This document shows, piece by piece, positions 6,001 to 62,010 of a stretch of 64,000 bases of DNA. The stretch comes from Lineus longissimus (Eukaryota > Nemertea > Pilidiophora > Heteronemertea > Lineidae): contig NC_088320.1 of the NCBI RefSeq assembly GCF_910592395.1, positions 10,046,001 through 10,110,000 of the forward strand. The letters run 5' to 3'. A program made the position numbers and the translations under genes. Below the pieces are notes generated by a model. It worked only from the letters and a program-made list of their open reading frames with translations. It made no database searches and had not been told where the DNA came from. Numbering within the stretch: the stretch's first letter is position 1; each line of letters opens with the position of its first letter.

Positions 6001-8245
6001 CATCGCCAGTAGCGTAATATTACTAGTCGAATGACAACTTCTCATCGCAGAATCTCAAAATTGCCTTTTAAGTTTGTCCAATCGGTCATCTTGACTCTGT
6101 ATAACCAAAATGAGCGTGATCGGTCGCGACGAGCGCCATCGCCGACTGACTTTCATCGCCAGTAGTGTAATATTGCTAGTCGAATGAAAACTTAACATCG
6201 CAGAATCTCAAAATTGTTGTCTCAGTTTGTCCAATCAGTCATCTTCACTCTGTATAACCAAAATAAGCGTGATCGGTCGTGACAAGCGCCATCGCTCACC
6301 GACTGTCATCGCCAGTAGCGTAATATTGCTAGTCGAATAACAACTTCTCATCGCAGAATCTCGAAATTGCCGTCTAAGTTTGTCCAATCGGTCATCTTGA
6401 CTCTGTATAACCAAAATGAGCGTGATCGGTCGCGACGAGCGCCATCGCCGCTGACTTTCATTGCCAGCAGTGTAATATCGCTCGTCGAATGACAAATAAT
6501 CATGACAGAATCACGAAATTGTGGTCTCAGTTTCTCTAATCGGACACTTCTACTCTGAAAAACCAAAATTAGCGTGATCGGTCGCGACGAGCGCCATCGC
6601 CGACCGACTTTCATCGCCAGTAGTGTAATATCGCTAGTCGAATGACAACTTCTTATCGTAGAATCTGGAACTTGCGGTCTCAGTTTTTCCAATCGGTCAT
6701 CTTGACTCTGTATAACCAAAATTAGCGTGATCGGTCGCGACGAGCGTCATCGCCGACCGACTTTCATCGCCAGTAGTGTAATATTGCTAGTCGAATGACA
6801 ACTTAACATCGCAGAATCTCAAAATTGTGGTCTCAGTTTGTCCAATCAGTCATCTTCACTCTGTATAACCAAAATAAGCGTGATCGGTCGTGACAAGCGC
6901 CATCGCTCACCGACTGTCATCGCCAGTAGCGTAATATTGCTAGTCGAATAACAACTTAACATCGCAGAATCTCAAAATTGTGGTCTCAGTTTGTCCAATC
7001 AGTCATCTTCACTCTGTATAACCAAAATGAGCGTGATCGGTCGCGACGAGCGCCATCGCCGCTGACTTTCATTGCCAGTAGTGTAATATCACTAGTCGAA
7101 TGACAAATAATCATCACAGAATCACGAAATTGTGGTCTCAGTTTGTCTAATCGGGCACTTCTACTCTGAAAAACCAAAATTAGCGTGATCGATCACGACG
7201 AGCACCATCACCGACCGACTTTCATCGCCAGTAGTGTAATATTGCTAGTCGAATGACAACTTCTCATCGCAGAATCTCGAAATTGCCGTCTAAGTTTGTC
7301 CAATCGGTCATCTTGACTCTGTATAACCAAAGTGAGCGTGATCGGTCGCGACGAGCGCCATCGCCGCTGACTTTCATCGCCAGTAGTGTAATATTGCTAG
7401 TCGAATGACAACTTATCATCGCAGAATCTCGAAATTGCAGTCTCAGTTTGTCCAATCGGTCATCTTGACTCTGTATAACCAAAATTAGCGTGATAGGTCG
7501 CGACGAGCGCCATCGCCCACTGACAATGATCGCCAGTAGTCTTATATCAATGGTCGAATGACAAATTATCATCACAGAATCTTGAAATTGTGGTCTGAGT
7601 TAGTCGAATCAGTCATCTCGACTCCGTATAACCAAAATGAGCGTGATCGGTCGCGACGAGCGGCTTCGCTGACCGACTTTCATCGCCAGTAGTGTAATAT
7701 CGCTAGTCGAATGACAACTTATCATCGCAGACTCTGGAAATTGCGTTCTCAGTTTGTCCAATTCGTCATCTCGACTCTGTAAAACCATAATGAGCGTGAC
7801 TGGTCGCAATTAGCGCCATCGCCAATCGTCTTTCATCGCCAGTCGTTTAATATCGCTATCAAATGACAACTTATCATCGCAGAATCTCGAAATTGTGGTC
7901 TCAGTTGGTCTAATCGGTCATCTCGACTCTGTATAACCAAAATGAGCGTGATCGGTCGCGACGAGCGTCATCGCCGACCGACTTTCATCGCCAGTAGTGT
8001 AATATCGCTAGTCGAATGACAACTTCTCATCGCAGAATCTGGAACTTGCGGTCTCAGTTTTTCCAATCGGTCATCTTGACTCTGTATAACCAAAATGAGC
8101 GTGATCGGTCGCGACAAGCGCTATCGCTCACTGACCGTCATCGCCAGTAGCGTAATATTACTAGTCGAATGACAACTTCTCATCGCAGAATCTCAAAATT
8201 GCCTTTTAAGTTTGTCCAATCGGTCATCTTGAGTCTGTATAACCA
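1..8245. repeat. Satellite array, ~153-bp unit, left block
   Basis: Head-to-tail copies of a unit of about 153 bp. The landmark CCAAAATGAGCGTGATCGG recurs at about 155, 308 and 461, and nearly every 153 bp after that. Units fall into variants that differ by substitutions and by 1-3 bp indels. Because 153 is a multiple of three, both strands show short repetitive open frames built from a 51-residue repeat; these are by-products and I do not call them genes. Higher-order copies are visible: blocks repeat at offsets of 765 bp (5 units), 1071 bp (7 units) and about 2903 bp (19 units; 4083-4906 recurs at 6986-7809). The array starts before the window and ends at 8245, where an element begins. Confidence 0.96.
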
Positions 8246-10298
8246 CAAGAGGCCCAAGGGCCTGGCGCTCAGCTGAGTTAATATCATTAATATCTTCCCG
8301 GTGTTTAGTTCATTATGCATGAAAATGGCATGCTCCATGGTATTTGATATCCTTTTGCGTTCACTACGGTACCAATGTTTTTGGTTGACATAATTATGCC
8401 ACTGTTGGAACATTCTCATGGTTTATGGTATGCACCTGTTGATGGGCCATATGAATAAAAACTAGCATAAGCTTTTACTCCAGATTTTTGAAGTATTTAG
8501 TATGCTTCAAAAATTGGAATAGTTTAGTTCTTGTGAAAGCAAAGGATTTTTAGAAATCAGTATTTGCTACCAAAACAAGTAAATGCTAGACTACATATGA
8601 ACGAAAATGTAGGATGAACCTTTTACTTGGTAGTATAAATGTATTTTCTTTGAACCATGTAGCCTTTAAAAGTCGAAGTGAATGGTTGGTTGTTCCTCTT
8701 TGCCGGACTGCATTCACATTTTGTTTGGTGGACATGTCATGCAAGAATTGGTCAAACCATACATCCATTTATGGAGAATCAGAGTGCATGGATTCCGAGT
8801 CATTAAAAAATGTCTAAAGAATTATTCTTGGGTCATGAAGGGAAACCTGCGTTGTTTAGTATGAAAGTGAAAAATATGACAGAGTTAAGAAAATTATGTT
8901 TTATTGAACAATAGTAAGTTTTGATTGTCTGCTTGGCTCCTTGCCAGTTAAATAACATGTGACTATACACAAAATAGAAAACTTTGGTGGAAATTGTAAA
9001 TCATTTTTTTTATCTATCAGGGGAAACAAGCTGATGATGATCAAGTAAATCATTCATGAGAAATCGTTTTGTTGCTGAAGCTTGCATGACGAAGTTAATG
9101 CTAAACCTTTTCTTGTGCTCTACTGCGCCACCGTAGTTTTCTATTTAGACCAGCGATGACGTCATTTCTGGTGATTCCCTACGCTATTTGGTATTGTACA
9201 GTATGCAATGTATTTTTTCAGCGCTGTCAGTTGCCGAAGAGAGTGCCGTAGCTCCCTCAATTTCCAATCAATTTTTATGGGAGTGACATTATTGTATTGC
9301 TTAGAATGTCTACTTTTTACTCATGAAAGAATCGTAGAACTAAAACTTAACAGGCGAACAGAATCATGCCGATTCACTGCACATACTGTGGGAATTCTCC
9401 ACTTCAAAATACATCGGCAATGTCATCGCGAATAACAGAGCATGCACTTCCGATATCGTTTTCACAGAAATGTGGCCAAATTTTTAAGAACTAATTTCTG
9501 AAAGTAGTCCCTAAAGACCTTACGACTACCACTGAAACGAACTGGTGATAATATCGCCTACCAGACTACCATCGTCATCGAGCTGAGTGTCATTGAGCTC
9601 CAAGATTATTGCACATGGATCGAGTAAACAACATGCCGCCATTTTGTCTCCGCTTCGGTATTTCGTAGGCCGCTAAAATGCACCTTCTCAATTAAAACCA
9701 ACATAATAAGGCCTCACATCGTTGATTGAATAGGAACACCACACAAAACACAATAAAGTGGGGCTACAATCGATTACGAAGCTGAAGTGAACAGTGATTT
9801 ATTCCTGGAGCTACTGCTGCTTTTTTGTGTAGCTGCCATGTTTTTAGAACTGGCAAATAGGAGACTTCATTGATGGCTGACGTCATCGGGCGGGAATTTG
9901 AATCAGCAGAAATAATTAAAAGGCAGGTAGCGCCCTCTCCTGTTAAAATTTTGAACTTTTTCTCAATAAAATAGTTTTTCAAGAATTTTATCTTAATATT
10001 AAAGCATATTTCGACTAATTCTGCTGCTCCTAGGCCGATATAGGCCAGTTTCCTTCATGCGCTCTCGCTCGCAGGAAGTAGGTCGAATGGCGACAAATTT
10101 TGTTTTGAAAGTAGAGTTTGACCAGAAGTATCCAGAAATGCAAAATTGAAGTCTCTAGGTCTTACGGTTACAAAATGTGCACCATGGGTTTAACGGACGG
10201 ACGGACGGACGGACGGACGGACGGACGGACGGACCCTCAGACGGACGCCACTGAGCAGCTTGTTTGACAAGCTCAGCTGACTTTGTCAGCTGAGCTAA
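8246..10298 (+). mobile_element. Hairpin-ended non-autonomous element E1, inserted in the satellite
   Basis: The left end reads CAAGAGGCCCAAGGGCCT followed by GCGCTCAGCTGA. The right end is a tetranucleotide tract (10193-10235) and then a perfect 12-bp hairpin, AGCTCAGCTGAC / GTCAGCTGAGCT with loop TTT (10270-10296), ending CTAA. The flanking satellite units join exactly if 8246-10298 is removed (left ...TATAACCA, right AAATGAGC...), so there is no target duplication beyond a possible A. No transposase is visible. The end structure (5' motif complementary to a 3' hairpin, microsatellite before the hairpin, insertion between two A's) resembles Helitron2/Helentron-derived elements; that assignment is inference. 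Internal parts (about 9140-9480) match 25615-25990 in the copy at 23344-26594. Confidence 0.8.
10193..10235 (+). repeat. (ACGG)n microsatellite in the tail of E1
   Basis: About ten uninterrupted copies of ACGG lie roughly 35 bp before the terminal hairpin of E1. Related elements in this window carry GGAT/GGAC or (GAC)n tracts at the same place, so the short tandem repeat appears to be a conserved part of the tail. Confidence 0.95.
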
Positions 10299-13200
10299 AA
10301 ATGAGCATGATCGGTCGCGACGAGCGCCATCGCCGACTGACTTTCATCGCCAGTAGTGTAATATTGCTAGTCGAATGACAACTTATCATCGCAGAATCTC
10401 GAAATTGCAGTCTCAGTTTGTCCAATCGGTCATCTTGACTCTGTATAACCAAAATGAGCGTGATCGGTCGCGACGAGCGCCATCGCCGACTGACTTTCAT
10501 CGCCAGTAGTGTAATATTGCTAGTCGAATGACAATTTATCATCGCAGAATCTCGAAATTGTGGTCTCAGTTTGTCCAATCAGTCATCTTCACTCTGTATA
10601 ACCAAAATAAGCGTGATCGGTCGTGACAAGCGCCATCGCTCACCGACTGTCATCGCCAGTAGCGTAATATTGCTAGTCGAATAACAACTTCTCATTGCAG
10701 AATCTCGAAATTGCCGTCTTAGTTTGTCCAATCGGTCATCTTGACTCTGTATAACCAAAATGAGCGTGATCGGTCGCGACGAGCGCCATCGCCGCTGACT
10801 TTCATTGCCAGTAGTGTAATATCGCTAGTCGAATGACGAATAATCATCACAGAATCACGAAATTGTGGTCTCAGTTTGTCTAATCGGGCACTTCTACTCC
10901 GAAAAACCAAAATTAGCGTGATCGGTCGCGACGAGCGCCATCGCCGACCGACTTTCATCGCCAGTAGTGTAATATCGCTACCGAATGACGACTTATCATC
11001 GCAGAATCTCGAAATTGTGGTCTCAGTTTGTCTAATCGGTCATCTCGACTCTGTATAACCAAAATTAGCGTGATCGATCACGACGAGCGCCATCACCGAC
11101 CGACTTTCATCGCCAGTAGCGTAATATTGCTAGTCGAATGACAACTTCTCATCGCAGAATCTCGAAATTGCTTTCTCAGTTTGGTTCAATCGGTCATCTT
11201 GACTCCGTATAACCAAAATTAGCGTGATCGATCACGACGAGCGCCATCACCGACCGACTTTCATCGCCAGTAGCAAAATATTGCTAGTCGAATGACAACT
11301 TCTCATCGCAGAATCTCAAAATTGCCGTCTAAGTTTGTCCAATCGGTCATCTTGACTCTGTATAACCAAAGTGAGCGTGATCGGTCGCGTCGAGCGCCAT
11401 CGCCGCTGACTTTCATCGCCAGTAGTGTAATATTGCTAGTCGAATGACAACTTATCATCGCAGAATCTCGAAATTGCGGTCTCAGTTTGTCAAATCGGTC
11501 ATCTTGACTCTGTATAACCAAAATAAGCGTGATCGTTCGTGACAAGCGCCATCGCTCACCGACTGTCATCGCCAGTAGCGTAATATTGCTAGTCGAATAA
11601 CAACTTCTCATCGCAGAATCTCGAAATTGCCGTCTAAGTTTGTCCAATCGGTCATCTTGACTCTGTATAACCAAAATGAGCGTGACCGGTCGCGACGAGC
11701 GCCATTGCCGACCGACTTTCATCGCCAGTAGTGTAATATCGCTATCGAATGACGACTTATCATCGCAGAATCTCGAAATTGTGGTCTCAGTTTGTCTAAT
11801 CGGTCATCTCGACTCTGTACAACCAAAATTAGCGTGATCGATCACGACGAGCGCCATCACCGACCGACTTTCATCACCAGTAGCGTAATATTGCTAGTCG
11901 AATGACAACTTTTCATCGCAGAATCTCGAAATTTCTGTCTCAGTTTGGTTCAATCGGTCATCTTGACTCCGTATAACCAAAATTAGCGTGATCGATCACG
12001 ACGAGCACCATCACCGACCGACTTTCATCGCCAGTAGCGTAATATTGCTAGTCGAATGACAACTTCTCATCGCAGAATCTCGAAATTGCAGTCTCAGTTT
12101 GTCCAATCGGTCATCTTGACTCTGTATAACCAAAATTAGCGTGATAGGTCGCGACGAGCGCCATCGCCCACTGACAATGATCGCCAGTAGTCTTATGTCG
12201 TTGGTCGAATGACAAATTATCATCACAGAATCTTGAAATTGTGGTCTGAGTTAGTCGAATCAGTCATCTCGACTCCGTATAACCAAAATGAGCGTGATCG
12301 GTCGCGACGAGCGGCTTCGCCGACCGACTTTCATCGCCAGTAGTGTAATATCGCTAGTCGAATGACAACTTATCATCGCAGAATCTGGAAATTGCGTTTT
12401 CAGTTTGTCCAATTCGTCATCTCGACTCTGTAAAACCATAATGAGCGTGACTGGTCGCAATGAGCGCCATCGCCAATCGTCTTTCATCGCCAGTCGTTTA
12501 ATATCGCTATCAAATGACAACTTATCATCGCAGAATCTCGAAATTGTGGTCTCAGTTGGTCTAATCGGTCATATCGACTCTGTATAACCAAAATGAGCGT
12601 GATCGGTCGCGACGAGCGCCATCGCCGACCGACTTTCATCGCCAGTAGTGTAATATCGCTAGTCGAATGACAACTTCTCATCGCAGAATCTGGAACTTGC
12701 GGTCTCAGTTTTTCCAATCGGTCATCTTGACTCTGTATAACCAAAATGAGCGTGATCGGTCGTGACAAGCGCCATCACTCACCGACCGTCATCGCCAGTA
12801 GCGTAATATTACTAGTCGAATGACAACTTCTCATCGCAGAATCTCAAAATTGCCTTTTAAGTTTGTCCAATCGGTCATCTTGACTCTGTATAACCAAAAT
12901 GAGCGTGATCGGTCGCTACGAGCGCCATCGCCGACTGACTTTCATCGCCAGTAGTGTAATATTGCTAGTCGAATGACAACTTATCATCGCAGAATCTCGA
13001 AATTGTGGTCTCAGTTTGTCCAATCAGTCATCTTCACTCTGTATAACCAAAATAAGCGTGATCGGTTGTGACAAGCGCCATCGCTCACCGACTGTCATCG
13101 CCAGTACCGTAATATTGCTAGTCGAACAACAACCTCTCATCGCAGAATCTCGAAATTGCCGTCTAAGTTTGTCCAATCGGTCATCTTGACTCTGTATAAC

Positions 13201-14717
13201 CAAAATGAGCGCGATCGGTCGCGACGAGCGCCATCGCCGCTGACTTTCATCGCCAGTAGTGTAATATCCCTAGTTGAATGACAACTTCTCATCGCAGAAT
13301 CTCGAAATTGCCGTCTAAGTTTGTCCAATCGGTCATCTTGACTCTGTATAACCAAAGTGAGCGTGATCGGTCGCGACGAGCGCCATCGCCGCTGACTTTC
13401 ATCGCCAGTAGTGTAATATTGCTAGTCGAATGACAACTTATCATCGCAGAATCTCGAAATTGCGGTCTCAGTTTGTCCAATCGGTCATCTTGACTCTGTA
13501 TAACCAAAATAAGCGTGATCCTTCGTGACAAGCGCCATCGCTCACCGACTGTCATCGCCAGTAGCGTAATATTGCTAGTCGAATAACAACTTCTCATCGC
13601 AGAATCTCGAAATTGCCGTCTAAGTTTGACCAATCGGTCATCTTGACTCTGTATAACCAAAATGAGCGTGATCGGTCGCAACGAGCGCCATTGCCGACCG
13701 ACTTTCATCGCCAGTAGTGTAATATCGCTATCGAATGACGACTTATCATCGCAAAATCTCGAAATTGTGGTCTCAGTTTGTCTAATCGGTCATCTTTACT
13801 CTGTATAACCAAAATTAGCGTGATCGATCACGACGAGCGCCATCACCGACCGACTTTCATCGCCAGTAGCGTAATATTGCTAGTCGAATGACAACTTCTC
13901 ATCGCAGAATCTCAAAATTGCCGTCTAAGTTTGTCCAATCGGTCATTTTGACTCCGTATAACCAAAATTAGCGTCATCGGTCGCGACGAGCGCCATCGCC
14001 GCTGACTTTCATCGCCAGTAGTGTAATATCGCTAGTTGAATGACAACTTCTCATCGCAGAATCTCGAAATTGCCGTCTAAGTTTGTCCAATCGGTCATCT
14101 TGACTCTGTATAACCAAAGTGAGCGTGATCGGTCGCGACGAGCGCCATCGCCGCTGACTTTCATCGCCAGTAGTGTAATATTGCTAGTCGAATGACAACT
14201 TATCATCGCAGAATCTCGAAATTGCGGTCTCAGTTTGTCCAATCGGTCATCTTGACTCTGTATAACCAAAATCAGCGTGATCGTTCGTGACAAGCGCCAT
14301 CGCTCACCGACTGTCATCGCCAGTAGCGTAATATTGCTAGTCGAATAACAACTTCTCATCGCAGAATCTCGAAATTGCCGTCTAAGTTTGACCAATCGGT
14401 CATCTTGACTCTGTATAACCAAAATGAGCGTGATCGGTCGCGACGAGCGCCATCGCCAGTAGTGTAATATCGCTAGTCGAATGACGACTAATCATCGTAG
14501 AATCACGAAATTGTGGTCTCAGTTTGTCTAATCGGGCACTTCTACTCTGAAAAACCAAAATTAGCGTGATCGGTCGCGACGAGCGCCATCGCCGACCGAC
14601 TTTCATCGCCAGTAGTGTAATATCGCTATCGAATGACGACTTATCATCGCAGAATCTCGAAATTGTGGTCTCAGTTTGTCTAATCGGTCATCTCGACTCT
14701 GTATAACCAAAATTAGC
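10299..14717. repeat. Satellite array, right block
   Basis: Continuation of the ~153-bp satellite, in phase with the block that ends at 8245. Shorter variants are common here: one base lost in GCCGCTGAC versus GCCGACCGAC, and two lost in CGCTATCGAATGACGAC. These indels shift the chance reading frames and are another reason not to read the array as coding. It ends abruptly at about 14717, where DIRS-like sequence starts. Confidence 0.95.
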
Positions 14718-14755
14718 GAATGATAAGTTAATAAGTTGTCATACCGAATTCCAAT

Positions 14756-16035
14756 GTGGGCTCCCTTGGACAGGGATCCAGCTCCATTGAGAAAGCAGGA
14801 CAGGATAGCGGCCCATCCTCTGAGCCTCAGGTGGGGGTTCCTAGTGGATCGGGAAAGAAGGATATTACAGAAAGGGAACGGTCTTCCCAATCCCACTCGT
14901 CAAAAAAGGGGTCTCGTCACCATGATCACTCTCATGGCCATGAGGGTCATAGGTAAAGGTCATCATCTTCAAAAAAATCCTCACACAGCTGGGGCAGACT
15001 GGGAGAAAAAGATGAGTTCCTTCATGGAAGAAAAAATGTCCCACTTTGAGACTAAAATTTTGGGCATAATGGCATCCTCACTGCAAGGGGTGAGGCCCGG
15101 TGTAGCCGGCAGTGGTCCGATCAGTGGCCCTAGTAGGGACAGTCGTGCGGTTTCTCCAGATTCGCCCAGTTTCCTTTCCAACAGGACTGGGAGGAGTCCA
15201 CCTGTCCATCGTGGGGATATTAATTCTGTACTTGGAGACAATTATGAAGATAGTATTTTTGGAGGGGGAGAATCTCCTTTCCCTAAGAGACCGGCAGCGT
15301 GGACAGGATGGCAGCGTGGACATCAGGTGGGACAAAGTTAACAAGAGCCTTCCTAGGGTGTCATTCTCGGATGAGAATAGACTAAGGAGGCAATATAGAT
15401 GGCCGGAGACTGATTTCGAACGGAGGGGCAAATGTCCAAGTCTCGACAAGTCGGTTGCCACTTACCTTAACACCAAGGTAGGTAGGTTCAAACCTAGGTC
15501 ACTTTACCCCTCTGAAGTGAAGACGGAGAAGGCCCTAGAAGGGATCGACAAAGTTCTTCGTTGTCAACAGAGAGTGGTGTGTCACTCATCGTACCTGTTA
15601 GCAGCCTTCAGACAGGCCCTGGCTCCAGAAGCGAGCTCCACGGAGGCGGACATTGCTTCGATTTTGAGGTCACTAGCGACGGCAACTTGCGATGTGGCCG
15701 CCCTGAGCACTACAGCATTGGCAAAATGTGTCAACAAGCGTAGGCATGTGTATGTGGAAGCCCTAAATCTTCCAGACAAGTCAGACAGGGACGCCCTTCT
15801 GAAGGTTCCCATTGAGGAATCTAAACTTTTTGGAGGAAAGTTTAATGATATTGCGAAGGAATCTTCACAGTTAAGACGTGATGCTCGAGAAATGGCAAGC
15901 ACGATGGCGTCAACTGCCAGCAGTTTTGGCAGGGACAGTTCTCGAAATACCAAGAGGAAAGCTTCTTCTTCCGTTGGTAACCAGTTCAAGGGATTGGCCC
16001 CCCACGAGGAACGAGGCTTGGGCCCCAGGCTATGA
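14756..16035 (+). pseudogene. DIRS gag-like ORF, frameshifted
   Basis: The N-terminal part is Ser/Gly/Lys-rich with a His-rich end (residue pattern HHDHSHGHEGHR). It is followed in another frame by a short coiled-coil-like stretch (EEKMSHFETK, about 15020-15060), and then in a third frame (from about 15300) by a roughly 240-residue region rich in basic and Ser/Ala residues that ends at 16035. No zinc knuckle is visible. Position directly upstream of the reverse transcriptase and composition fit DIRS Gag. At least two frameshifts separate the parts, so I treat it as broken. The function would be to package element RNA. This is assigned from context and not from a strong motif. Confidence 0.6.
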
Positions 16036-16239
16036 TTCAAGAGCAGACAAAAAAGGTCTGCAGAAGCCGCAGCAAAAATGGGGGGCACAACAGCAGGCAA
16101 CTCAAGGTCGCCAGGGCAACAAATGGGGAAAAGGGCAAAGGTCATTCAAGCAGTCCTATCGCCCCAAACAGTCACAATAGCAACCATTGTCCCCAGCCCC
16201 CCCCCCCCCACCACCACAACATCTTCAAGGCCTCCAGTG

Positions 16240-16993
16240 GGGGGCAGGCTGGGCTCTTTCGCCAAAAAATGGCGAAAGATTACAAAAGACAAGTATGTGC
16301 TCAACATCTTGGAAAATGGCTATTCCATAGAATTCGAAAAAAGCCCTCCCTTGTCAAACTTCCGTCCGGACACAGCAAATTCTCTCAGCCAAGAGAAGAG
16401 GGGGGCCATGTCCTTGGAAATAGAAAAGATGTTGGAAAAGGGGGCAATAGAGGAAGTCCCGGTGCACCAACAAGAGGTAGGTTTCTATTCAAATCTTTTT
16501 CTTGTTCCCAAAAAATCTGGGGGGTTTGCGTCCTGTGTTGAATTTAAAGGCTTTAAATTCATACATAGTAGACCGTCCGTTCAGGATGGAGACCTTCAGG
16601 TCAGTGATGAGGTCTCTGAAACCCGACAAATGGGTGGCATCGCTGGACCTGTCCAAAGCATATTTTCACGTCCCTGTGAACATAGAATCCAGGAAATTCC
16701 TCAGATTCCAGTTTGCGGGCAAACAATTTCAGTTCAAGGCCCTGGTTTTTGGACTGAAATCGGCTCCGAGGGTATTCACAAAGGTAGTTGCAACCCTCAT
16801 GGCCCACCTTCGGACCAGAGGAATCCGAATTCATGTCTATTTAGACGACTGGCTTATAAGAGCGTTCAGTCGACGCCGACTGAAACAGGTCTTAAGCTTA
16901 GAGACCCAGACTGTCACAGCCCTGGGCTTCTTGATAAATTGGAAAAAATCTGAATTGGCACCAACCCAGGTAATAGTCTTGGGGCAATATTGA
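16240..16993 (+). pseudogene. DIRS reverse transcriptase, frameshifted
   Basis: The first part (about 16240-16500) contains the stretch before the palm (EKGAIEEVP, then NLFLVPKKSGG). One frameshift near 16500 moves the reading frame into 16502-16993. That part has LRPVLNLKALN, the first catalytic region WVASLDLSKAYFHVPV, LVFGLKSAPRVFTK, and the active-site motif YLDD at 16838-16849, followed by GFLINWKKSEL. These are the standard RT blocks in the right order, with both active-site aspartates kept. A stop at 16991-16993 and another frame change separate it from RNase H. It copies element RNA into DNA in the DIRS cycle. Confidence 0.88.
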
Positions 16994-17064
16994 ACCTAGT
17001 GGACAGTCTGGCCTTCCCATCACGGGAACGAGCATCAGCTCTCTAGTCTGCAATTTCATCCGTA

Positions 17065-18215
17065 ATGGACAGAGAGTGGGCCACTGCTCGAGAAATTCTC
17101 AGCATCCTTGGAATGATGGCATCATGCACAGACGTTGTCCAATGGGCGAGGCTTCAGATGAGGCTCCTTCAGCTTCATTTACGGGAGTCCTGGTGCCCCC
17201 AGAGGAATATCCTATCGAAACATATTTCTCTACCTTTCAATCTGAAACGTCAGCTCCACTGGTGGACAGTAGAAGCCAATTTATTCAAAGGGGTCAGTAT
17301 AACCCCCCAAAAAACCCAAGTGACGATTTCAACAGATGCATCTCTCGAGGGTTGGGGAGCACTCAAGGAGGGCAGCAGCCTTTCAGGAGTTTGGACCAAG
17401 GCAGAGGCAATAAAACATATAAACTGGCTAGAATTGAGAGCTGTACAGCTAGCCTTGATGGGATTCAAAAAATCGCTGGGGGGCAAGATGGTACTTGTTC
17501 TAACCGACAACACCACGGTGGCTGCATATCTAAACAAAGAAGGGGGCACTCATTCGAAGGACCTGTGTCTCCTCACGAGGTCAGTCCTGCTTTGGTGTGC
17601 ACGCCTGGGCATTTCCCTGAAGGTCAGACACATCGCAGGGGTGAAAAACATAGTCCCGGATGCTCTGTCCAGGAGAGACGGGACATTCCCCACAGAGTGG
17701 ACCCTAAAGGGGGACATTCTGAAGCTGGTATTCAGCAGATGGGACAGACCCCATGTCGATCTATTCGCAACAAGTCTAAATCACCAGCTTCCTGTATATG
17801 TCTTCCCAGTTCAAGACACTCAGGCATGGGCAGTAGTTGCCCTGTCAATTTCTTGGAGGGGGATCCTGGGTTATGCTTTTCCTCCGGTAGCCCTGATACA
17901 GAGGGTACTCAACAAAATACAAGAGGAGGACTGTGTTGTATTCCTCATAGCACCGTGGTGGCCCCGACAGCCTTGGTTCTCGGGGGTACTAGATCTCCTG
18001 ATCGAGTCGTCGTTGAAATTTCCGGACAGACCCGACCTACTGTACCAACCACACAACAAACAACTCCACAAAGATCCCTCCATCATGAAGCTAGTTGCAT
18101 GGAGATTATCAAGAATGCCTGGGTTAAGAAAGGCATACCTGTCAACGCTGCAGAGCATGCAGCCCAGGCCCGAAGAAAGTCAACCCGGGACACATACGAT
18201 GCCAGACTTCGAATT
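17065..18215 (+). CDS. DIRS RNase H plus methyltransferase-like domain
   Basis: A single open frame follows the reverse transcriptase. The RNase H part shows the four acidic positions in context: STDASLEGWGA, NWLELRAVQLAL, LTDNTTVAAYL and NIVPDALSRRDG. A second domain follows, with VDLFATSLNHQLPVYVF, YAFPPVALI and FLIAPWWPRQPWF, the pattern of the adenine-methyltransferase-like domain that DIRS elements carry after RNase H. The frame formally runs on to 18306, but its last part overlaps the recombinase in another frame and no longer looks like the domain. RNase H would remove template RNA; the role of the methyltransferase-like domain in DIRS elements is not known. Confidence 0.85.
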
Positions 18216-19138
18216 TTCTTTGAATGGTGCAGGGAGAGGGAGTTCGACCATTGCAGGCCACTTTAGCCGAGGTCTCCTCTTTCCTTACTTATTTGTTCGA
18301 GATTAAGAATCTCCAGGTTAGAACTATTCTGGGTTACAAGGCTGCTATATCAGTGGTGCACCCAGGTTGGGGTGGAATAGTAGTGGGTAGGCACCCTCTA
18401 CTTTCTGACATCATTAAGTCTTTCATTTACATCAGACCTCCGTCTAGGCATATTTGCCCGGGTTGGAATTTGCCTCTAGTCCTCATGAAACTTTGTTTGG
18501 AACCTTTTGAGCCTCTGGGGAAGGCAGATATGAAATTCCTGTCCTGGAAGACAGCCTTTTTGATAGCAGCAGCCTCGGCGAGGCAGAGAAGCACTCTTCA
18601 TGCCTTATCCATCGACGAAGGCCATTTGTCTTGGTCAAGGGAAGGGCTGACACTCATTCCATCCCCAGAGTTCATGGCCAAAAATGAATCCGCCAACTAC
18701 ATGAGTAAAGCAATCTTTTTACCTGAAATGTCTTCAGTCTCCAGTGTGCAGGAAGACACCTGGTTGTGCCCATGCAGGGCACTTAGAATTTACCTAGATA
18801 GGACCAAGAGTGTCAGAGACGGCCAGAATCAGCTCTTTCTGACATATGCGAAAGGGAAAGTAAAACCTTGTGCTAGAGACACTATCAGTCGCTGGCTGGT
18901 AGAAACCAACAAGTTTTCTTATGACAATGCCTCGCTCAGGGAGAGGGTACATTGTAAGGCACATGAGTTAAGGGCAATGGCCACCTTGTGGGCCTTAGCC
19001 AAGGGAGTACCAATGGAGGAACTCCTGCAAGCAGCAAACTGGAAATCAGATTTTACGTTCACTGCTTTTTACATGAGGGATGTTACAGGTCAGAGGGCGA
19101 GGTTTGCCCAGGCTGTCCTTTCAACATCTCGTGTTTAA
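18080..19138 (+). pseudogene. DIRS tyrosine recombinase, one frameshift
   Basis: The N-terminal part (core-binding domain) is read in one frame up to about 18235 (RKSTRDTYDARLRIFFEW) and overlaps the end of the RNase H/methyltransferase frame. The catalytic part is read in another frame to the stop at 19138. The recombinase residues are all visible: the first Arg in SARQRSTLHAL, His and Arg in HELRAMATLWA, Trp in AANWKSDFT, and the nucleophilic Tyr in AFYMRDV. One frameshift near 18235 joins the halves, so the catalytic domain is intact but a full-length protein would need repair or ribosomal slippage. The enzyme inserts the circular DIRS DNA intermediate by strand exchange. Confidence 0.87.
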
Positions 19139-28313: not shown

Positions 28314-29017
28314 AATAACTTCAACTTATTTTCCGGTTATGATAACGCAACACGCATCCTCATGATCATGATCTTTCTCAAACTAACTGAATGACCTGAT
28401 CGCCTTGGACGCACAACCTAACCACATATCAATCCGCCCCGACGATCGACACATCAATTCGATTCGATAACACTCGATAAGGTTTGATAAGTAAACTAGA
28501 ACTGAGATTTCACAGGAGCACCTGTGAATTCATGACTCCAGGGTTGTTTTGAGGGCGATATCGTAACAGTTGGTCTTGAGTATGGGGTCCTGGTGGTCCG
28601 TGTGAGGCACCTGGGCTGGGGAGAGAAGACTAGTTGAACGGTCGATGGGATCTGACACGGACACTACTATTGATCTCATTATATGAATACCATTTAAATA
28701 CAAACAAGTGAAAACAGATCATATCATATTCCTTGGCATAAATTAAAATAGGAGTGCGGGAACAAGGTTTTTTTAGCAGGAGGAAAGCGAGAACATTTTA
28801 CGCCGTCGTATTCCACTTTGACTGGTTAGTGGTGAAATCTGCTTTTAATTTTGCAAATTAAAATATTCGTTTTTCTAGTTCTAACGTTGTTTGAATTAAA
28901 GATGCTTTCCCAATGCTTGACTGGTCTGGCAAGAGGCATTGCCAGGAAAACGTGACGTCATTTTGGCAATTCTTCTTACTGCACGCCCTCCCTCTCCGTA
29001 AAACTTCCTGACATGGT
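28314..29017. other. Unassigned sequence before the ribozyme insertion
   Basis: No open frame, RNA gene or repeat end that I can defend. The sequence is AT-rich with a few short GC-rich patches. The last 15 bases before the insertion (ATGAAGTGGGAGGGC, ending at 29032) are the left copy of the target duplication. Confidence 0.5.
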
Positions 29018-29180
29018 ATGAAGTGGGAGGGCAGCCCACCTGCTTGACTAAAACAGAATGTTTCAACAACAGAGTCGCAACAAAGTCTATAACGTCACAA
29101 CGTCATTGAGAAACCACCCCTGAGTCATGATGTCATTCAAACTGTGAACTTCAAACAGGACAGATGCAAGTCAACCCCAG

Positions 29181-29223
29181 CCACCCTGATGAAGCCTAGA
29201 GGGGCAGAAACGCGCGTCGGTGG
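29181..29223 (+). ncRNA. Type I hammerhead ribozyme, copy 1
   Basis: Stem I CCACC (29181-29185) pairs with GGTGG (29219-29223). The core is CTGATGA (29186-29192) and GAAA (29207-29210). Stem II GCCT/GGGC has loop AGAG, with an A-A mismatch next to the core. Stem III is minimal, ACG/CGT around CG. Predicted self-cleavage is after C29218 (GTC). The very short stem III is typical of retroelement hammerheads that work best as dimers, which a tandem transcript provides. Confidence 0.82.
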
Positions 29224-29538
29224 AGCAACACAACAGCCCAACAATAGGGACCGATGGACATTGTTGTGAACTACAGTGACGGTATCCAGTTTTACTTCTA
29301 CTATTCTGATTTTATTGTCTGGTCCGTGTGTATCATCGGTTGATCCTGTACTTCTCAACATGTGCCATTTGGACAGCCCACCTGCTTGACTACAACAGAA
29401 TGTTTCAACAACAGAATGTTTCAACAACAGAGTCGCAACAAAGTCTATAACGTCACAACGTCATTGAGAAACCACCCCTGAGTCATGATGTCATTCAAAC
29501 TGTGAACTTCAAACAGGACAGATGCAAGTCAACCCCAG

Positions 29539-29581
29539 CCACCCTGATGAAGCCTAGAGGGGCAGAAACGCGCGTCGGTGG
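29539..29581 (+). ncRNA. Type I hammerhead ribozyme, copy 2
   Basis: Identical in sequence to copy 1 and 358 bp downstream of it. Predicted cleavage is after C29576. Cleavage at this site and at the matching site of copy 1 would release a monomer of 358 nt. Confidence 0.82.
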
Positions 29582-29880
29582 AGCAACACAACAGCCCAAC
29601 AATAGGGACCGATGGACATTGTTGTGAACTACAGTGACGGTATCCAGTTTTACTTCTACTATTCTGATTTTATTGTCTGGTCCGTGTGTATCATCGGTTG
29701 ATCCTGTACTTCTCAACATGTGCCATTTGGACAGCCCACCTGCTTGACTACAACAGAATGTTTCAACAACAGAGTCGCAACAAAGTCTATAACGTCACAA
29801 CGTCATTGAGAAACCACCCCTGAGTCATGATGTCATTCAAACTGTGAACTTCAAACAGGACAGATGCAAGTCAACCCCAG

Positions 29881-29923
29881 CCACCCTGATGAAGCCTAGA
29901 GGGGCAGAAACGCGCGTCGGTGG
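29881..29923 (+). ncRNA. Type I hammerhead ribozyme, copy 3
   Basis: Identical in sequence to copies 1 and 2 and 342 bp after copy 2. Predicted cleavage is after C29918. The unit containing it is truncated after 273 bases at 30005. Confidence 0.82.
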
Positions 29924-30297
29924 AGCAACACAACAGCCCAACAATAGGGACCGATGGACATTGTTGTGAACTACAGTGACGGTATCCAGTTTTACTTCTA
30001 CTATTATGAAGTGGGAGGGCGCACAATGGGAACCACACTGCCGCGATGTTAATAGTTTCTATTTATAGAATTCAGCGGAAGAGATTTTAAGCACGAAAAA
30101 AGTGGATTAACTCGGCTAATCTCAATGGATTTTACCCAGGAATGTTTTCAAGGCGAGAGAAACATCCGATTTAAGTACTGCGCTTATTAGATTTCATGTT
30201 CATGCCGAAGATTGGCCAAAACGTGGACGAAAAGAGTGCATTATCGAGTGTTGGAGAGGTCACGTGATTGGACGAGAAACCTGAGCGAAAACAATAC

Positions 30298-35903: not shown

Positions 35904-38232
35904 TCATTTGCAGAGATATATCCATTGGCTTGGAGCATTTAGCTTGAGGAAATTTTGTGCCATCCATTGGCGAACTTCCGCAATACAGGCTTCAAGTTTA
36001 CCGATTGACTGTACTGAATCGGTCTGCTCAAAACATATGTAGAGTTGAGTATCATCAGCAAACAAATGAACCTTTATACTTTGACGTCGAATCAGATCAG
36101 CCAGTGAAGCCATGTAAATGCTGAAAAGCAATGGCCCAAGACTGATCCTTGGGGAACGCCTGTCTCTAGCTAAAGATGACTCTCCTTTAACTATAATCTT
36201 CTGTGACCGGTTTGTCAGGTTGGACCTAAACCACTCCAAAGCGGTACTATTCAGACCAATCCTGTCACGCAGACGATCAAGGAGGACCGAATGATTGACA
36301 CAGTGACTGCCTTTTGAAAAAGCCAGGTGCATGGTTTTCAGTGCACCATAAAATCCTAGGTGCACTGTTTTTTTTACCACCAACCAACTTTTCTTCTGGT
36401 ATCCATCGACAACGTTAGTCTGGTGGACACGAGGTTGGCCTTAAACTTGCTTGAAATCCTTGCATTCTGACATATAGAAACATGTGGTCTGATTCTATTT
36501 TTACTTGTCACTAAGTGATCACGCGTCCAACCTCGTATGCAGGGTAATGTGGCTTTCTCATTGGTCGAACGTTAATTTTGTTCACAGCCTTTTAAGGCAC
36601 TTGAGCGCAACGCAGTATTTCTCTGAAGGAGAAAAGCTTGATGGGTTATATCCGGTACGCGCGAGACTACCGCAAAGATATTTCCAGAACTGCGAGATTT
36701 ACGTCGGAGTACCGGTATAGTATGTCTTCTCTTGAGTATATAATTTCGGCGGGAATATTGCATCTCGGCTCGTGCACCTGCGGCAGTCGCGTCCGGTTTC
36801 TATAATTTCTGTCTATCATGGCCTAGTCTTTAGCACAAAAATAGTTCGATAATTGAAATGTCTGACTTACTGACCCCTGTGTAATTAGCATCACTTTCCA
36901 CTGCGTCGCAATCATTTTTTAGGCGCGCGATTTTTTAATGCATTTTAAAGGGCAGGCGCGCGATGTTTCATTCACCTAAAAAAATTGAGGCGCGCGATGG
37001 TGCGCGGGCGCGATCGCGCGCCTCAAAAGCCAATCACTGTTGACAGTATCAAATGCTGCAGATAAATCAAGCAATACCAGACCAACCATTTGCTTCTTGT
37101 CTAGTGCCAAGAGGATGTCATTCAACCCTGACCAAGGCTGTTTCGGTACTACGGTTGGCCCGGTATGCCGACTGCATGCATTCGAAAAGCTCGTTTTCGG
37201 ACATGTGGTCATGTAACTGGTGGTCAACTACCCTTTCCAAAATTTTGGAGATGAAGCTTAGGTTGGAAACAGGCCGGTAGTTTTTAAGGTCCTCCCTTTG
37301 TAGACTAGGTTTCTTCAAAAGTGGCGTGACATTGGCTGATTTGAGACAATCCAGAACTGAACCAGATAAAATTGACGAGTTTACAAGCTTACAGATTGCA
37401 GGAGAAATTGCTTCAGCAATCGCATCCTCTTTAAGAAGATGTGTGGGAAGAGGATCAAGTGCACAAGATTTTGTTGGCGACTTCTTGATCACCCTTCTAA
37501 TTTCATCCTCAGTAACAGGTTGAAAGAAAGACAGCTTTTGTTGGCAGCTAGGTTGCTCAGCGTCAGTAACCAATGACCCCATTGAATCGCGGAGCCCTGA
37601 AAGGTAGACATTAATGCCATTGACCTTATTTTGGAAAAAATGAGCAAATCTATTGGCTAGCTGCTGCCCTTCCCCAACAGAGAAGTCAGGCAATGAGCGG
37701 TCTTTCTTCCTGTTGAGCAATGAGTTCACAGTTCTGTAGAGTTTACGCTGATCACCACCATCGTCCTTAATTTTTTCAACTAGAAAGTCCCTGTTTGCCT
37801 TCTCAATCTTCCGAATAACCTGCACATGCTTTCAGGGTAGACCTCCCTATGGATTTCAAGCTTTGAGTGGCCCCACTGTCTCTCAGCCTTTCTGCGGAAC
37901 ATGCGTGCCTCGGGCACCTCAGCATTATAACATGGTACCTTGTGCCGTATTGTAACTGCCTTAGAATGAATTGGTGCATGCTTGTCCAAGATTGCCTTCA
38001 GATCGTGGTTGTAGGTTTCCACCAAGACTGAGGCATTGTCTTGGACACATTGGTTCACTGCAGATGCTGCAACATCAAGAGCAAATGCACCAACATCTAT
38101 TGACCTCAGCCTTCTTACATCCATCATCACACGATTTGGCTGTTTCACGCATTTGCCTGGGAGAGTGAAAGTCACAGGGCAATGGTCTGACATCAATGAT
38201 GCACCAACCGACAGATCACCAATCACGTTCAT
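35904..38232 (-). pseudogene. CR1/L2-like LINE, antisense, decayed
   Basis: On the minus strand the end of the endonuclease is visible (GASLMSDHCPVTFTLPG), followed by the linker and RT N-terminus (KKSPTKSCALDPLPTHLL, NYRPVSNLSFISKILERV). The first catalytic block is VLLDLSAAFDTVN, and beyond an insertion are VNHSVLLDRLRDRIGL and the active site LFADDTQLY (36051-36062). There are several frame changes. It ends at about 35904 after QNFLKLN, so the 3' part is missing, and the endonuclease is cut at 38232 by the tail of another element. It resembles the LINE at 47.4-50.6 kb, but the two are distinct copies. Confidence 0.82.
36301..37039. mobile_element. hAT-like TIR element inside the antisense LINE
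   Basis: The ends are CAGTGACTGCCTTTTGA on the left and the reverse complement of CAGTGATTGGCTTTTGA on the right. TTGACA flanks both sides (36295-36300 and 37040-37045). Removing it rejoins the LINE between AFDTVN and HSVLLDRL. CAGTG-type ends with a duplication of six to eight bases suggest hAT. The right third is extremely rich in GCGCGC. No transposase is present. Confidence 0.72.
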
Positions 38233-38347
38233 ATCAGTAGCACAGATGGCTAGATGGAAGGATGGCAGGATGGATGGAAGGATGGAAGGACGGACACCAA
38301 TCGAATAGCTATTTGACTAGGTCCGCTGACTTTGTCAGCTGAACTAA
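38233..38347 (+). mobile_element. 3' tail of a hairpin-ended element (truncated, E5)
   Basis: A GGAT/GGAA tract (about 38247-38297) is followed by GCTGACTTTGTCAGCTGAAC and CTAA at 38347. This is the same tail as E1 and E2. The body and 5' end are absent on the left, where the antisense LINE is cut. Confidence 0.7.
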
Positions 38348-47266: not shown

Positions 47267-47559
47267 TCTGGAATGTGGTGTGTGCGCTTGTAGCTGCCTG
47301 CCAAAACAGCTCCCAACAAAATCACTGTTTTTCGAATCATATAGTGTTGGATTTCCTTTTCATCAGTTTCAATCTTCTTATGAATGCCCATGGAGCACTT
47401 TGAACACTTTTGCTATCGAGTGGGACTTCATTGGAATTATACACGGATGGCCAAAACTTTTTCAACTCTCCTGTGGGCCCTGGTGCCATTGCTGTGTACA
47501 TGTATGTACACACATTTGTATAGCAGTGCTAATGCATATGGATTGTACACACCAGTTTC

Positions 47560-48310
47560 AGACATGCATATAACCACCTACTCAAGGGATTATCTGTGGA
47601 GTATGTCCAACAGGAATCACATTTCCGATCAATCCTGGATAACAACATTGGACTTTGCAACAAAGAGAGTTATTCTTCCAAGACCAACGAAACGAACCCA
47701 TAGGGGAAAGAGAGCTGGTGTTCGAATGAAAGCCGGGAGGATTAAGAGAAACCGATCAAAATCAGGACTCACTGTTGGCATTTTGAATGCCCAATCCATC
47801 AGAAATAAAGTGGACCAGATTCATGACATTATCATTGAATTTGACATTGACATTTTTACTTTTACTGAGACCTGGGTAACTTCCAAGGCCAAAGATGAGT
47901 ATTTCCTCAAAGCCCTGGCCATATAAGGGTATAAACTCTTCAGTGTTCCCCGCAGAGGAAACAAAGGCTGGGGTGGAGTCGCTGTACTCTACAAGTCCAA
48001 CATGGTTGTGTCATCTTCCTCTTCGACCCAGAGTGCCACTAGTTTTGAAACCTGTGAAATAGTGTTTTCCCTAGGAGCCAAGTGTCTCAGAGTAGTTGTC
48101 GTGTACCGACCACCGCCATCAACGAAGAACAAACTATCAATTCCGTTATTCTTCGAGGAGTTTACTCCTACTCTCCAGAGCTTTGCCACGAGTCATGGTG
48201 ATCTTCTCATAACTGGGGATATCAACTTTCATCTCGATGTCCCAAGTGAGTCGGCGCCTCGACGCTTTCTTGAACTCCTCGCAGTGACAGTGACATCATT
48301 TCTAGTCTGG
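47560..48310 (+). pseudogene. LINE endonuclease (APE type), one stop
   Basis: A basic leader (HRGKRAG) precedes the APE-type endonuclease: LTVGILNAQSIRNKVDQIHD, FTFTETWV, GGVAVLY, VVVYRPPPSTKN, and LLITGDINFHLDV with the catalytic GD-N. A TAA at 47924-47926 interrupts the frame after FLKALAI. Near 48290 the frame changes, and the final LDHNLVVVNV (the usual SDHxxV) is read in the frame of the RT ORF. The protein nicks target DNA to start target-primed reverse transcription. Confidence 0.83.
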
Positions 48311-50544
48311 TGCAAGGGGACATGATTTTAGATCACAACTTAGTCGTAGTCAATGTGTCCCATCCAAAGCCATCCCCAAAGCGTGTCACTGTGATGACGC
48401 GAAAACTTCGGGACATTGATCTGAACTCACTGACAAAGGACATTTCCGAAATGGAGTGGCCCGCAGCTGACTCCGACCTGGACTCTCTGTGCTCAGCGTT
48501 CCACACTGGACTAAGGGATCTCCTTGACCAACACGCTCCGGAAAAAGCCAAGACTGTCACTGTCCGGCCATCGCAACCCTGGTTCTCGCCTGAGGTTCAT
48601 GGAGTCAAGACCAAGAAAAGGAAGGCTGAAAAACTATGGAGAAAAAGTGGGCTTACTGTACACAAGGAAATATACCAGCAGGCACGTAACACCTTCAACA
48701 TGTTGATCGACTCCACTAAATCCGCTTACTTCAACAGGCGGATTGAAGAGGCGGACGGTAACCTGAGAGAGAGGCAAAAACTCTTTCAGAACATTCTCCA
48801 CACTAGTCGTGAAGTAAAACTTCCACAGCACTCGGACCAAAGGGAACTGGCTGACAAGTTTGCCAACTTCTTTCATGACAAAGTGAAGAAAATCCGCTCG
48901 GGGTTACCTACCGTCGACAAGGATGTTGTGGATAATGCAGTACTCGCCACCAAGAACCATTCGTTTACCGTTTTTGAGCCTGTCACCTGTGATGAACTCT
49001 CCAGTGTTATGAAGAAATCGCCCACGAAATCATGCCCGTTGGATCCACTTCCTACCTGGATGATTAAAGCAACGCTCCCCGAGGTTGTAGAGGTGATAAG
49101 GGACATTGTCAATTCTTCGATGAAAAGTGGTGACGTGCCCGAGCAGATGAAAATTGCTCTAGTGTCACCCCTACTAAAAAAGCCGTCACTCGATCCTGAA
49201 ATCTTACAAAACTATCGACCAGTTAGCAACTTATCCTTTTTGTCAAAGGTACTTGAACTTGTTATTGCAGCCCGGTTGAATACGTACATGGACACTCACA
49301 ACCTTCACGATGCCTTCCAATCAGCCTACAAGGCTAAGCATAGTACTGAATCGGCATTACTGAGGGTCCAGAACGATATTCGCAACATGGTTGATAAACA
49401 TGGTGCAGCTGTATTAGTGTTACTAGATCTCAGTGCCGCGTTCGACACGGTCGACCACGAAGGTCTCCTCTCGCGTCTACAAAATCTCCTTGGTATCAAC
49501 GGTATCCCGCTAAAGTGGTTTCGTTCATATCTGGCGGGGAGGACGCAACATGTGTGTATCAGCGGAAAGAGATCAGCGCCTCAAACACTCAATTATGGCG
49601 TACCACAGGGGTCAGTATTAGGCCCCATCCTTTTCCTGGTCTACATCCTGCCACTTGGTCCCCTTATCGATGGTTTTGGCACCCCTAGGCACGGATACGC
49701 GGATGACAATCAGTTGTATGTAGCACTTCCTGTCACTCAGGCCGCTTCAAGGATCATCGACCTCGAGATCTGTCTCGTTGATATTCATGACTGGCTTACT
49801 GTTAACAAGCTCAAAGGAAATCCTTCTAAAACAGAGATCGAACTCTTTGGCTCACAGAGAGTAATCGATTCACTGAACGTTAAATCACTTGTAGTCGCTG
49901 GCGTCCAGGTCACTCCGTCCAGTGGCCCTGTGCGGAACCTCGGAGTGTATTTTGATCAAACTCTTTCTATGGCATCACACATAAACTACATCATCAAATC
50001 TGCAACTTACCACTTGCGCATTATTGGTCGCGCTCGCAAGCTCCTTACAACTGCAGCAACGAAAGAGCTAGTGCACTCACTGGTGATGTCTCGTTTGGAC
50101 TACGGAAATAGTCTGTTAGCTGGGGTTGATGAGCAACTCCTGCACAAATTACAACTAGTGCAGAGCCGTGCAGCAAGAATAATTACAAGGACTCCACTAC
50201 GTGAGCACATAACACCCGTTTTGAGAACTCTCCACTGGCTTCCGATACCATATCGTATCGATTTCAAGGTTTTACTCATGGTGTTCAAAGCCAAAAACAA
50301 CATGGCTCCATCATATATCTCGGACATCCTGCCATCGTATGTCCCAGGGCGATCCCTGAGATCGGATAACCAAGAGTTGTTGGTGACTCCCAGGTATCGC
50401 CTTGAGACATTTGGTGGCAGAAGCTTTACAGTTTATGCCAGCAAATTATGGAACTCGCTGGACACTAACACCCGCAACAGCTCCACCGTCAGCGAGTTCA
50501 AAAGAAGATTAAAAACCAAACTATTTGAACAGTGTTTTTGTTAA
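48310..50544 (+). CDS. LINE reverse transcriptase ORF
   Basis: A 744-codon open frame. In order: the end of the endonuclease, a basic linker, the N-terminal RT motif KKSPTKSCPLDPLPTWMIK, NYRPVSNLSFLSKVLELV, LLDLSAAFDTVDHEGLL, GVPQGSVLGPILFLVYI, active site YADDNQLY (YADD at 49696-49707), LGVYFDQTLSM, and the CR1/L2-type C-terminus with LHWLPIPYRIDFKVLLM and KLWNSLD. No stop interrupts RT, and all catalytic motifs are present. The start codon is formal, because the frame continues from the endonuclease after a frameshift. Confidence 0.92.
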   Translation: MQGDMILDHNLVVVNVSHPKPSPKRVTVMTRKLRDIDLNSLTKDISEMEWPAADSDLDSLCSAFHTGLRDLLDQHAPEKAKTVTVRPSQPWFSPEVHGVKTKKRKAEKLWRKSGLTVHKEIYQQARNTFNMLIDSTKSAYFNRRIEEADGNLRERQKLFQNILHTSREVKLPQHSDQRELADKFANFFHDKVKKIRSGLPTVDKDVVDNAVLATKNHSFTVFEPVTCDELSSVMKKSPTKSCPLDPLPTWMIKATLPEVVEVIRDIVNSSMKSGDVPEQMKIALVSPLLKKPSLDPEILQNYRPVSNLSFLSKVLELVIAARLNTYMDTHNLHDAFQSAYKAKHSTESALLRVQNDIRNMVDKHGAAVLVLLDLSAAFDTVDHEGLLSRLQNLLGINGIPLKWFRSYLAGRTQHVCISGKRSAPQTLNYGVPQGSVLGPILFLVYILPLGPLIDGFGTPRHGYADDNQLYVALPVTQAASRIIDLEICLVDIHDWLTVNKLKGNPSKTEIELFGSQRVIDSLNVKSLVVAGVQVTPSSGPVRNLGVYFDQTLSMASHINYIIKSATYHLRIIGRARKLLTTAATKELVHSLVMSRLDYGNSLLAGVDEQLLHKLQLVQSRAARIITRTPLREHITPVLRTLHWLPIPYRIDFKVLLMVFKAKNNMAPSYISDILPSYVPGRSLRSDNQELLVTPRYRLETFGGRSFTVYASKLWNSLDTNTRNSSTVSEFKRRLKTKLFEQCFC

Positions 50545-61921: not shown

Positions 61922-62010
61922 GTCTGTTGAAGGAAGCATCCCGAAATAGACATCTCCTAGGAGTACGATTTTAAGCGAAGAAAGACAAGTATACGAAAAG
62001 ACAAGACAAG

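Follow-up and report, generated by a model that had tools for sequence, protein, structure and literature searches.

The window analyzed here, a stretch of 64,000 nucleotides of DNA from Lineus longissimus, contains a tandem array of hammerhead motifs bounded on either side by the same short sequence (Table 1). A preliminary description had proposed three identical type I hammerheads in units of 358 and 342 nucleotides, within a 973-bp block flanked by a perfect 15-bp repeat, and both observations were borne out: the three cores (with CTGATGA starting at 29186, 29544, and 29886) and their predicted cuts could be located, and the direct repeat is perfect over 15 bp, or over 16 bp if the T shared at its left is included. 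With this extra T, the duplication might comprise 16 bp, leaving 972 bp for the element. A 12-bp match at the spacing of the element was found at 5 of 48,100 start positions, all 5 of them inside the flanking repeat. The two full units differ by no substitution and the partial first unit carries a single one (A for C), while neither the start nor the end of the block coincides with a cut site. The GC content of the element is 46.5%, and its longest sense ATG frame comprises 29 codons, so that it is noncoding, in agreement with the earlier view that it encodes no protein.

Table 1. Features of the hammerhead-bearing insertion (coordinates refer to the window)
Feature	Position	Strand	Basis or remark
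ATGG directly before the duplication, fitting the nick motif of the family	29013..29016	+	Nick-site comparison, sequence
Target-site duplication, left copy ATGAAGTGGGAGGGC	29018..29032	.	T at 29017 likewise common to both sides; sole repeat at such spacing
Complete insertion of 973 bp (972 with the shared T counted in the duplication), 2.8 tandem units	29033..30005	+	Unit and flank alignment
Hammerhead 1, type I, minimal	29181..29223	+	Predicted cleavage after 29218; Rfam alignment and descriptor
358-nt unit, cut site to cut site	29219..29576	+	Predicted cuts
Internal 16-bp repeat, 2.5 copies, lengthening the 358-nt unit by 16 nt	29392..29431	+	Repeat search
Hammerhead 2	29539..29581	+	Predicted cleavage after 29576; Rfam alignment and descriptor
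342-nt unit, cut site to cut site	29577..29918	+	Predicted cuts
Hammerhead 3	29881..29923	+	Predicted cleavage after 29918; Rfam alignment and descriptor
Element 3' end, putative reverse-transcription start	29999..30005	+	86-87 nt past the cut at 29918; position common to all 43 3' ends of duplication-bearing blocks
Target-site duplication, right copy	30006..30020	.	Flank comparison

A structural hammerhead descriptor matched the plus strand of the 64-kb window three times, at exactly the three cores, and the minus strand not at all; 400 shuffles of 64 kb gave 0.0225 hits each on average and never more than 3. Comparison with a covariance model, a check named in the preliminary description, aligned each core over all 45 positions of Rfam Hammerhead_1, but at a score of 17.8 bits (E value of 0.5), which lies under the gathering score of 34, at which an Rfam search of the window listed nothing. 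The assignment to type I stands, with the qualification that the paired stems I to III described earlier are reduced: stem III consists of 2 bp closed by a GCGC loop, and stem II begins with an A.A mismatch, which makes these motifs minimal. When the 66-nt hammerhead region was folded, it displayed neither an extension of stem I nor a visible loop-loop extension. The best fold of a single core (-12.3 kcal/mol) has a nonhammerhead shape, with the monomeric hammerhead at -9.0 kcal/mol, and the unconstrained cofold of two cores is a double hammerhead of -36.1 kcal/mol, equal to the drawn structure, in which the copies are joined via the self-complementary ACGCGCGU. From these folding models, two hammerhead copies are predicted to act as one dimeric ribozyme. 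According to the available portions of the respective papers, this mode has been reported for the hammerheads of newt and axolotl (PMC7229834, PMC6155905) and proposed for those of Penelope elements (PMC7761336). Each of 100 shuffles was more stable than the RNA of the whole unit, whose z scores were +1.88 in linear and +2.33 in circular form. Viral and prokaryotic relatives were considered and rejected, since among the 9 viral and 45 genome contig stretches that contain the hammerhead pattern, none (0/54) reaches three pairs in stem I as well as in stem II.

Several other repetitive or mobile sequences share the window with this element. A 153-bp satellite (positions 1 to 14718) is present in about 54 copies in 1-8245 and in 27 copies in 10298-14457, its array being broken by other sequence at about 8.2 to 10.3 kb, and is adjoined by a retroelement with an RVT_1 domain (14727-19138), which may be DIRS-like. 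LINE-type reverse transcriptase and endonuclease fragments lie at 35904-38316 on the minus strand and at 47384-50544 on the plus strand, the latter having many database relatives, of which the best is 85% identical. An inverted repeat at 56034-56928 features 307-nt arms that are 97% complementary and made of 83-bp tandem repeats, and a Mutator-like transposase (PF20700) at 61975-63999 continues past the end of the window.

When one unit was used as a query, at least 133 matches with 93 to 100% identity were found in the 391-Mb source genome of 30 contigs, a count that is a lower bound because only the best candidates were scored. A hammerhead pattern, applied to the whole genome, matched 138 times per strand, compared with 28 and 15 times for the reversed pattern, and many of the places listed look chance-like. 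We read 48 further regions, namely, 38 clusters grouped from the unit matches and 10 sites (contigs C1, C3, and C5) among the hammerhead matches listed, which extended to contig C6, which together with the window yielded a sample of 49 loci and 51 insertion blocks; copies outside this sample lie, for example, at C17:3540465, C13:16398259, and C10:14680196. Divergence averaged 2.45% between loci and was lower than this within 12 of 14 loci. Variants present in only some units of an array (125 private and 103 common to other loci) did not separate circular from multimeric templates. In addition, we observed another hammerhead-like family (CTGATGAGTTAAC..GTTAAC-type stem II; L133 to L137, on contigs C1, C3, C4, and C5 of G000), which consists of dispersed elements of about 300 to 600 bp that are 81 to 91% alike, with neither a clear ORF nor a definable common end in the copies examined. 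The motif CTGATGACGTCATCAACACGAAACGGTC likewise recurs at many places in the genome.

The sampled blocks carry the marks of insertion. Target duplications of 13 to 18 bp flank 28 of the 51 blocks, with 16 bp as the commonest length and most falling between 15 and 17 bp, and 36 blocks have duplications of at least 8 bp, leaving 15 blocks without any of 8 bp (both counts with a limit of 12 nt around the ends). Under the tighter limit of 8 nt that was applied in the swapped-flank control, duplications were detected in 35 of 51 blocks but in only 11 of 1,020 swapped flank pairs, and 3 of the 1,020 pairs reached 16 bp. Because different duplications occur at many genomic sites, the element is no plain satellite; the comparison of the unit with the genome thereby supports the earlier proposal of a mobile insertion and speaks against a conventional satellite.

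To describe the ends of the blocks, we use u for the number of nucleotides after the hammerhead cut within the unit. Among the 36 blocks whose duplications are 8 bp or longer, all 43 of the 3' ends fall at u81-90, although the true 3' ends may lie a few nucleotides later, since bases common to duplication and element were assigned to the duplication. Over all 51 blocks, 55 of 61 3' ends fall at u78-94, and the six outlying ends (u23, 58, 216, 224, 265, and 342) all belong to blocks without a duplication, the one at u342 being a split point in the alignment of a long array. At a few 3' ends, up to 6 nt ahead of the duplication could not be aligned to the unit. The 5' ends are scattered and cluster only weakly, most strongly at u141-167 (scan P of 0.016 to 0.085). 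All 36 blocks whose duplication reaches 8 bp cross at least one cut site, i.e., extend at least 167 nt from an end at u81-90, in a sample that could miss insertions of about 90 nt stopping at a cut site. Given that the duplication-bearing blocks run through the cut site, the RNA that was copied there was an uncleaved multimer or a circle rather than a cleaved linear monomer.

Another observation was that 10 of the 49 loci hold copies in head-to-head arrangement. At the joints of these copies, the two sides overlap by 1 to 6 nt in eight loci, and in the remaining two, they are separated by a filler 6 or 8 nt long. Wherever a head-to-head locus has a duplication (seven loci), its two outer ends both fall at u82-89, as expected from dual priming.

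The 28 loci with duplications of 13 to 18 bp further share a weak nick motif, roughly A-T-G/T-G/T-G^T, which appears on opposite strands at the two nick sites. For the T that follows the nick, bases common to the site and the end of the element are a partial confounder. Over the 56 sites, the motif contains 2.82 bits of information, compared with 1.83 bits for the highest of 500 control sets. A matrix derived from the left sites scored 0.08 on the right sites, against a control value of -2.92 (standard deviation, 0.65; highest of 1,000, -0.84).

Taken together, we propose that the element is a nonautonomous, non-long terminal repeat (non-LTR) metazoan retrozyme that is mobilized by an enzyme of the Penelope type (PLE), a reading to which we assign a probability of about 0.72. 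The borrowed machinery that the preliminary description had called for is supported, and the insertion scars narrow it to this type of enzyme. In the accessible text on the PLE of Anolis (PMC11167929), the hammerhead cut lies 26 nt and the start of reverse transcription 111 to 118 nt into the ORF, from which we derive a start 85 to 92 nt after the cut; a single agreement with this distance would arise by chance about 8 times in 342. The Anolis enzyme cuts and extends both strands, with the same start on both, and does not require hammerhead cleavage in vitro (PMC11167929, same portion). Penelope insertions are described, in the parts available of PMC3846280 and PMC8969392, as 5' truncated and tandem, with possible inverted pLTRs and, optionally, a tail of roughly 31 bp. 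However, the PLE duplications given in the available part of PMC3846280 are 8 to 9 bp and therefore shorter than those of our element, and the PLE nick preference reported in PMC11167929, as far as its text was available, is AT rich with ATT. The likeness to PLEs is one of geometry, not of sequence, and the genome candidates scored included no autonomous PLE that shares the sequence of the unit. Also counting against the proposal are the 15 blocks that lack a duplication of 8 bp, the six outlying 3' ends, the unaligned nucleotides at a few ends, and the poor folding of the unit.

Three loci were considered as possible partners. In L140, two arms of 175 bp lie head to head; they are 99.4% identical, each contains a minimal hammerhead, and they end 53 and 87 nt past their own hammerhead cut. 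L140 is flanked by a duplication, 12 bp or longer, that was found by eye after being missed by the automatic check; both copies were then confirmed, the left one at the edge of the stretch. This form corresponds to the pLTR with optional tail described for PLEs (PMC3846280, in part available). As a PLE protein frame is absent from the stretch examined, L140 is Penelope by form only, and it was rejected as a sequence partner, since a single 17-nt match connects it to the unit: it shares the geometry, not the sequence. Elsewhere in G000, e.g., at C12:2533571/2533834 and C16:15967365/15967663, minimal hammerheads that lack stem III form closely spaced inverted pairs, an arrangement like that of L140.

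L139 (G000:C8:19663600-19667500, minus strand) is a lone diverged relative of the unit, 79% identical over 233 bp, with the hammerhead CTGATGAGGCCTAGAGGGCCAGAAACGCGTC and a 101-amino-acid (101-aa) frame that opens through this hammerhead. Its similarity to the unit seems to continue some nucleotides beyond the usual 3' end. Although its frame looked suitable, L139 was rejected as the start of an autonomous PLE, since no other match extends past query base 249 among the scored candidates and no good duplication was seen. The genome has 32 GIY-YIG matches, one of which falls in an 872-aa frame together with a reverse transcriptase domain. This locus, L138 (G000:C3:15250100-15254300, minus strand), combines RVT_1 with a C-terminal GIY-YIG and has a 421-aa frame overlapping upstream; a hammerhead core is absent from the 4.2 kb examined, and L138 was rejected as a sequence partner for lack of similarity to the unit.

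How such an enzyme might move the element can be outlined as follows. A multimeric RNA would be transcribed from the element, in which neighboring hammerheads could pair through their self-complementary segment and cleave as dimers, while part of the RNA would be left uncleaved or be closed into circles by a host ligase. The endonuclease would then nick both target strands, 15 to 17 bp apart, and the reverse transcriptase would start inside the RNA, about 86 nt downstream of the cut, and copy at least one unit. A direct array would result if one strand is extended, and a head-to-head insertion if both are extended and joined 5' to 5'. It is tempting to go one step further, and here we lean only slightly toward acceptance: a PLE enzyme may read the uncleaved multimer or circle of retrozyme RNA from a fixed site about 86 nt past the hammerhead and prime both cut strands at once, such that head-to-head copies are the footprint of double priming and animal retrozymes of this kind are parasites of Penelope. 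If this was the case, the hammerhead would serve in making or choosing the template and would not set the ends of the insertion.

Alternatively, a LINE, and not a PLE, might move the retrozyme through target-primed reverse transcription that involves an AP-like endonuclease. Duplications of 15 to 17 bp and 5' truncation suit LINEs as well, and LINE fragments occur in the window. Yet neither poly(A) nor a shared 3' repeat is present at the listed ends, the nick motif is alike on both strands, and the end sits at the PLE distance from the hammerhead. Moreover, twin priming by LINEs places only one outer end at a given internal site, so that two outer ends at the same internal site, as in all seven head-to-head loci with a duplication, are not readily produced by LINEs; we therefore consider this explanation unlikely.

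Slightly less probable still is the idea that the unit is the pLTR of an autonomous PLE family, in which case the arrays would be truncated PLE copies and there would be no independent element. While the minimal hammerhead, the tandem and inverted layout, and the position of the 3' end would fit a pLTR plus tail, as would the 101-aa frame through the hammerhead of L139, the units abut without intervening sequence, the extension of L139 is without a further copy among the scored candidates, and no ORF-bearing PLE body was seen after any block in the 49 aligned loci (an alignment without a systematic protein search). A conventional satellite that expanded by unequal crossing-over and acquired its flanking repeats by chance would suit some loci, which form long arrays and lack a duplication (L086, L087, L094, and L099). 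This explanation, which we hold to be very improbable, is rejected in its plain form in view of the differing 13- to 18-bp duplications, the swapped-flank control, and the nick motif, and the fixed 3' end argues against it as well.

The proposed mobilization by a PLE enzyme bears on the more general question of which enzyme moves animal retrozymes. Scars such as those described here give countable predictions: a window for the 3' end, one nick motif on both strands, and dual-primed copies. They also suggest that the signal needed by a PLE enzyme can sit in an element without coding sequence. The interest lies in the link between a retrozyme and Penelope-like scars; we found no report of retrozyme scars of this kind in the literature searched, which was largely without subscription journals, so that their absence is not established. 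PLEs have been named as candidate movers of animal retrozymes, on the grounds of shared features and co-occurrence, in the portions available of PMC7229834 and PMC7761336.

Compared to known systems, the element agrees with the metazoan non-LTR retrozymes, as characterized in the accessible text of Cervera and de la Pena (2020; PMC7229834), in having one type I hammerhead per unit, tandem noncoding units of 170 to 400 nt, target duplications of more than 4 bp, no LTR, and a GC content under 50% (under 45% in that paper's figure, which the 46.5% of our element exceeds). It differs from them in that its hammerhead is minimal, without visible loop-loop extension, and in that its unit RNA is poorly folded, whereas the published circles are self-paired. 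The PLE-like fixed 3' end, the head-to-head copies, and the nick motif are features of our element that we did not see described for metazoan retrozymes in the available part of that paper. The type I hammerhead repeats of newt and axolotl (PMC7229834, same portion) share with it a very short stem III, a palindromic tetraloop, dimeric action (predicted in our case), and units of 330 to 350 nt, and in one axolotl class, stem II is likewise mismatched at its base. In contrast, at least one amphibian class has contacts between loop 1 and loop 2, a comparison that was made by description. The plant LTR retrozymes are likewise free of protein, equipped with tandem hammerheads, and dependent on a helper, but they have type III hammerheads, LTRs, a PBS, a PPT, and 4-bp duplications, unlike the type I hammerheads and the 15- to 16-bp duplication found here (PMC7229834, PMC7761336, in the sections available). 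Lastly, hammerhead PLEs resemble the element in their minimal hammerheads, tandem and inverted copies, and 5' truncation (PMC11167929, PMC3846280, and PMC8969392, in part), as well as in an internal start 85 to 92 nt past the cut, close to the u81-90 of our element, with both strands cut and extended (PMC11167929, in part). They differ from it, as far as these partial sources go, in nick motif and in their duplications of 8 to 9 bp, and since our element has no ORF for a reverse transcriptase and GIY-YIG, it is not itself a Penelope element.
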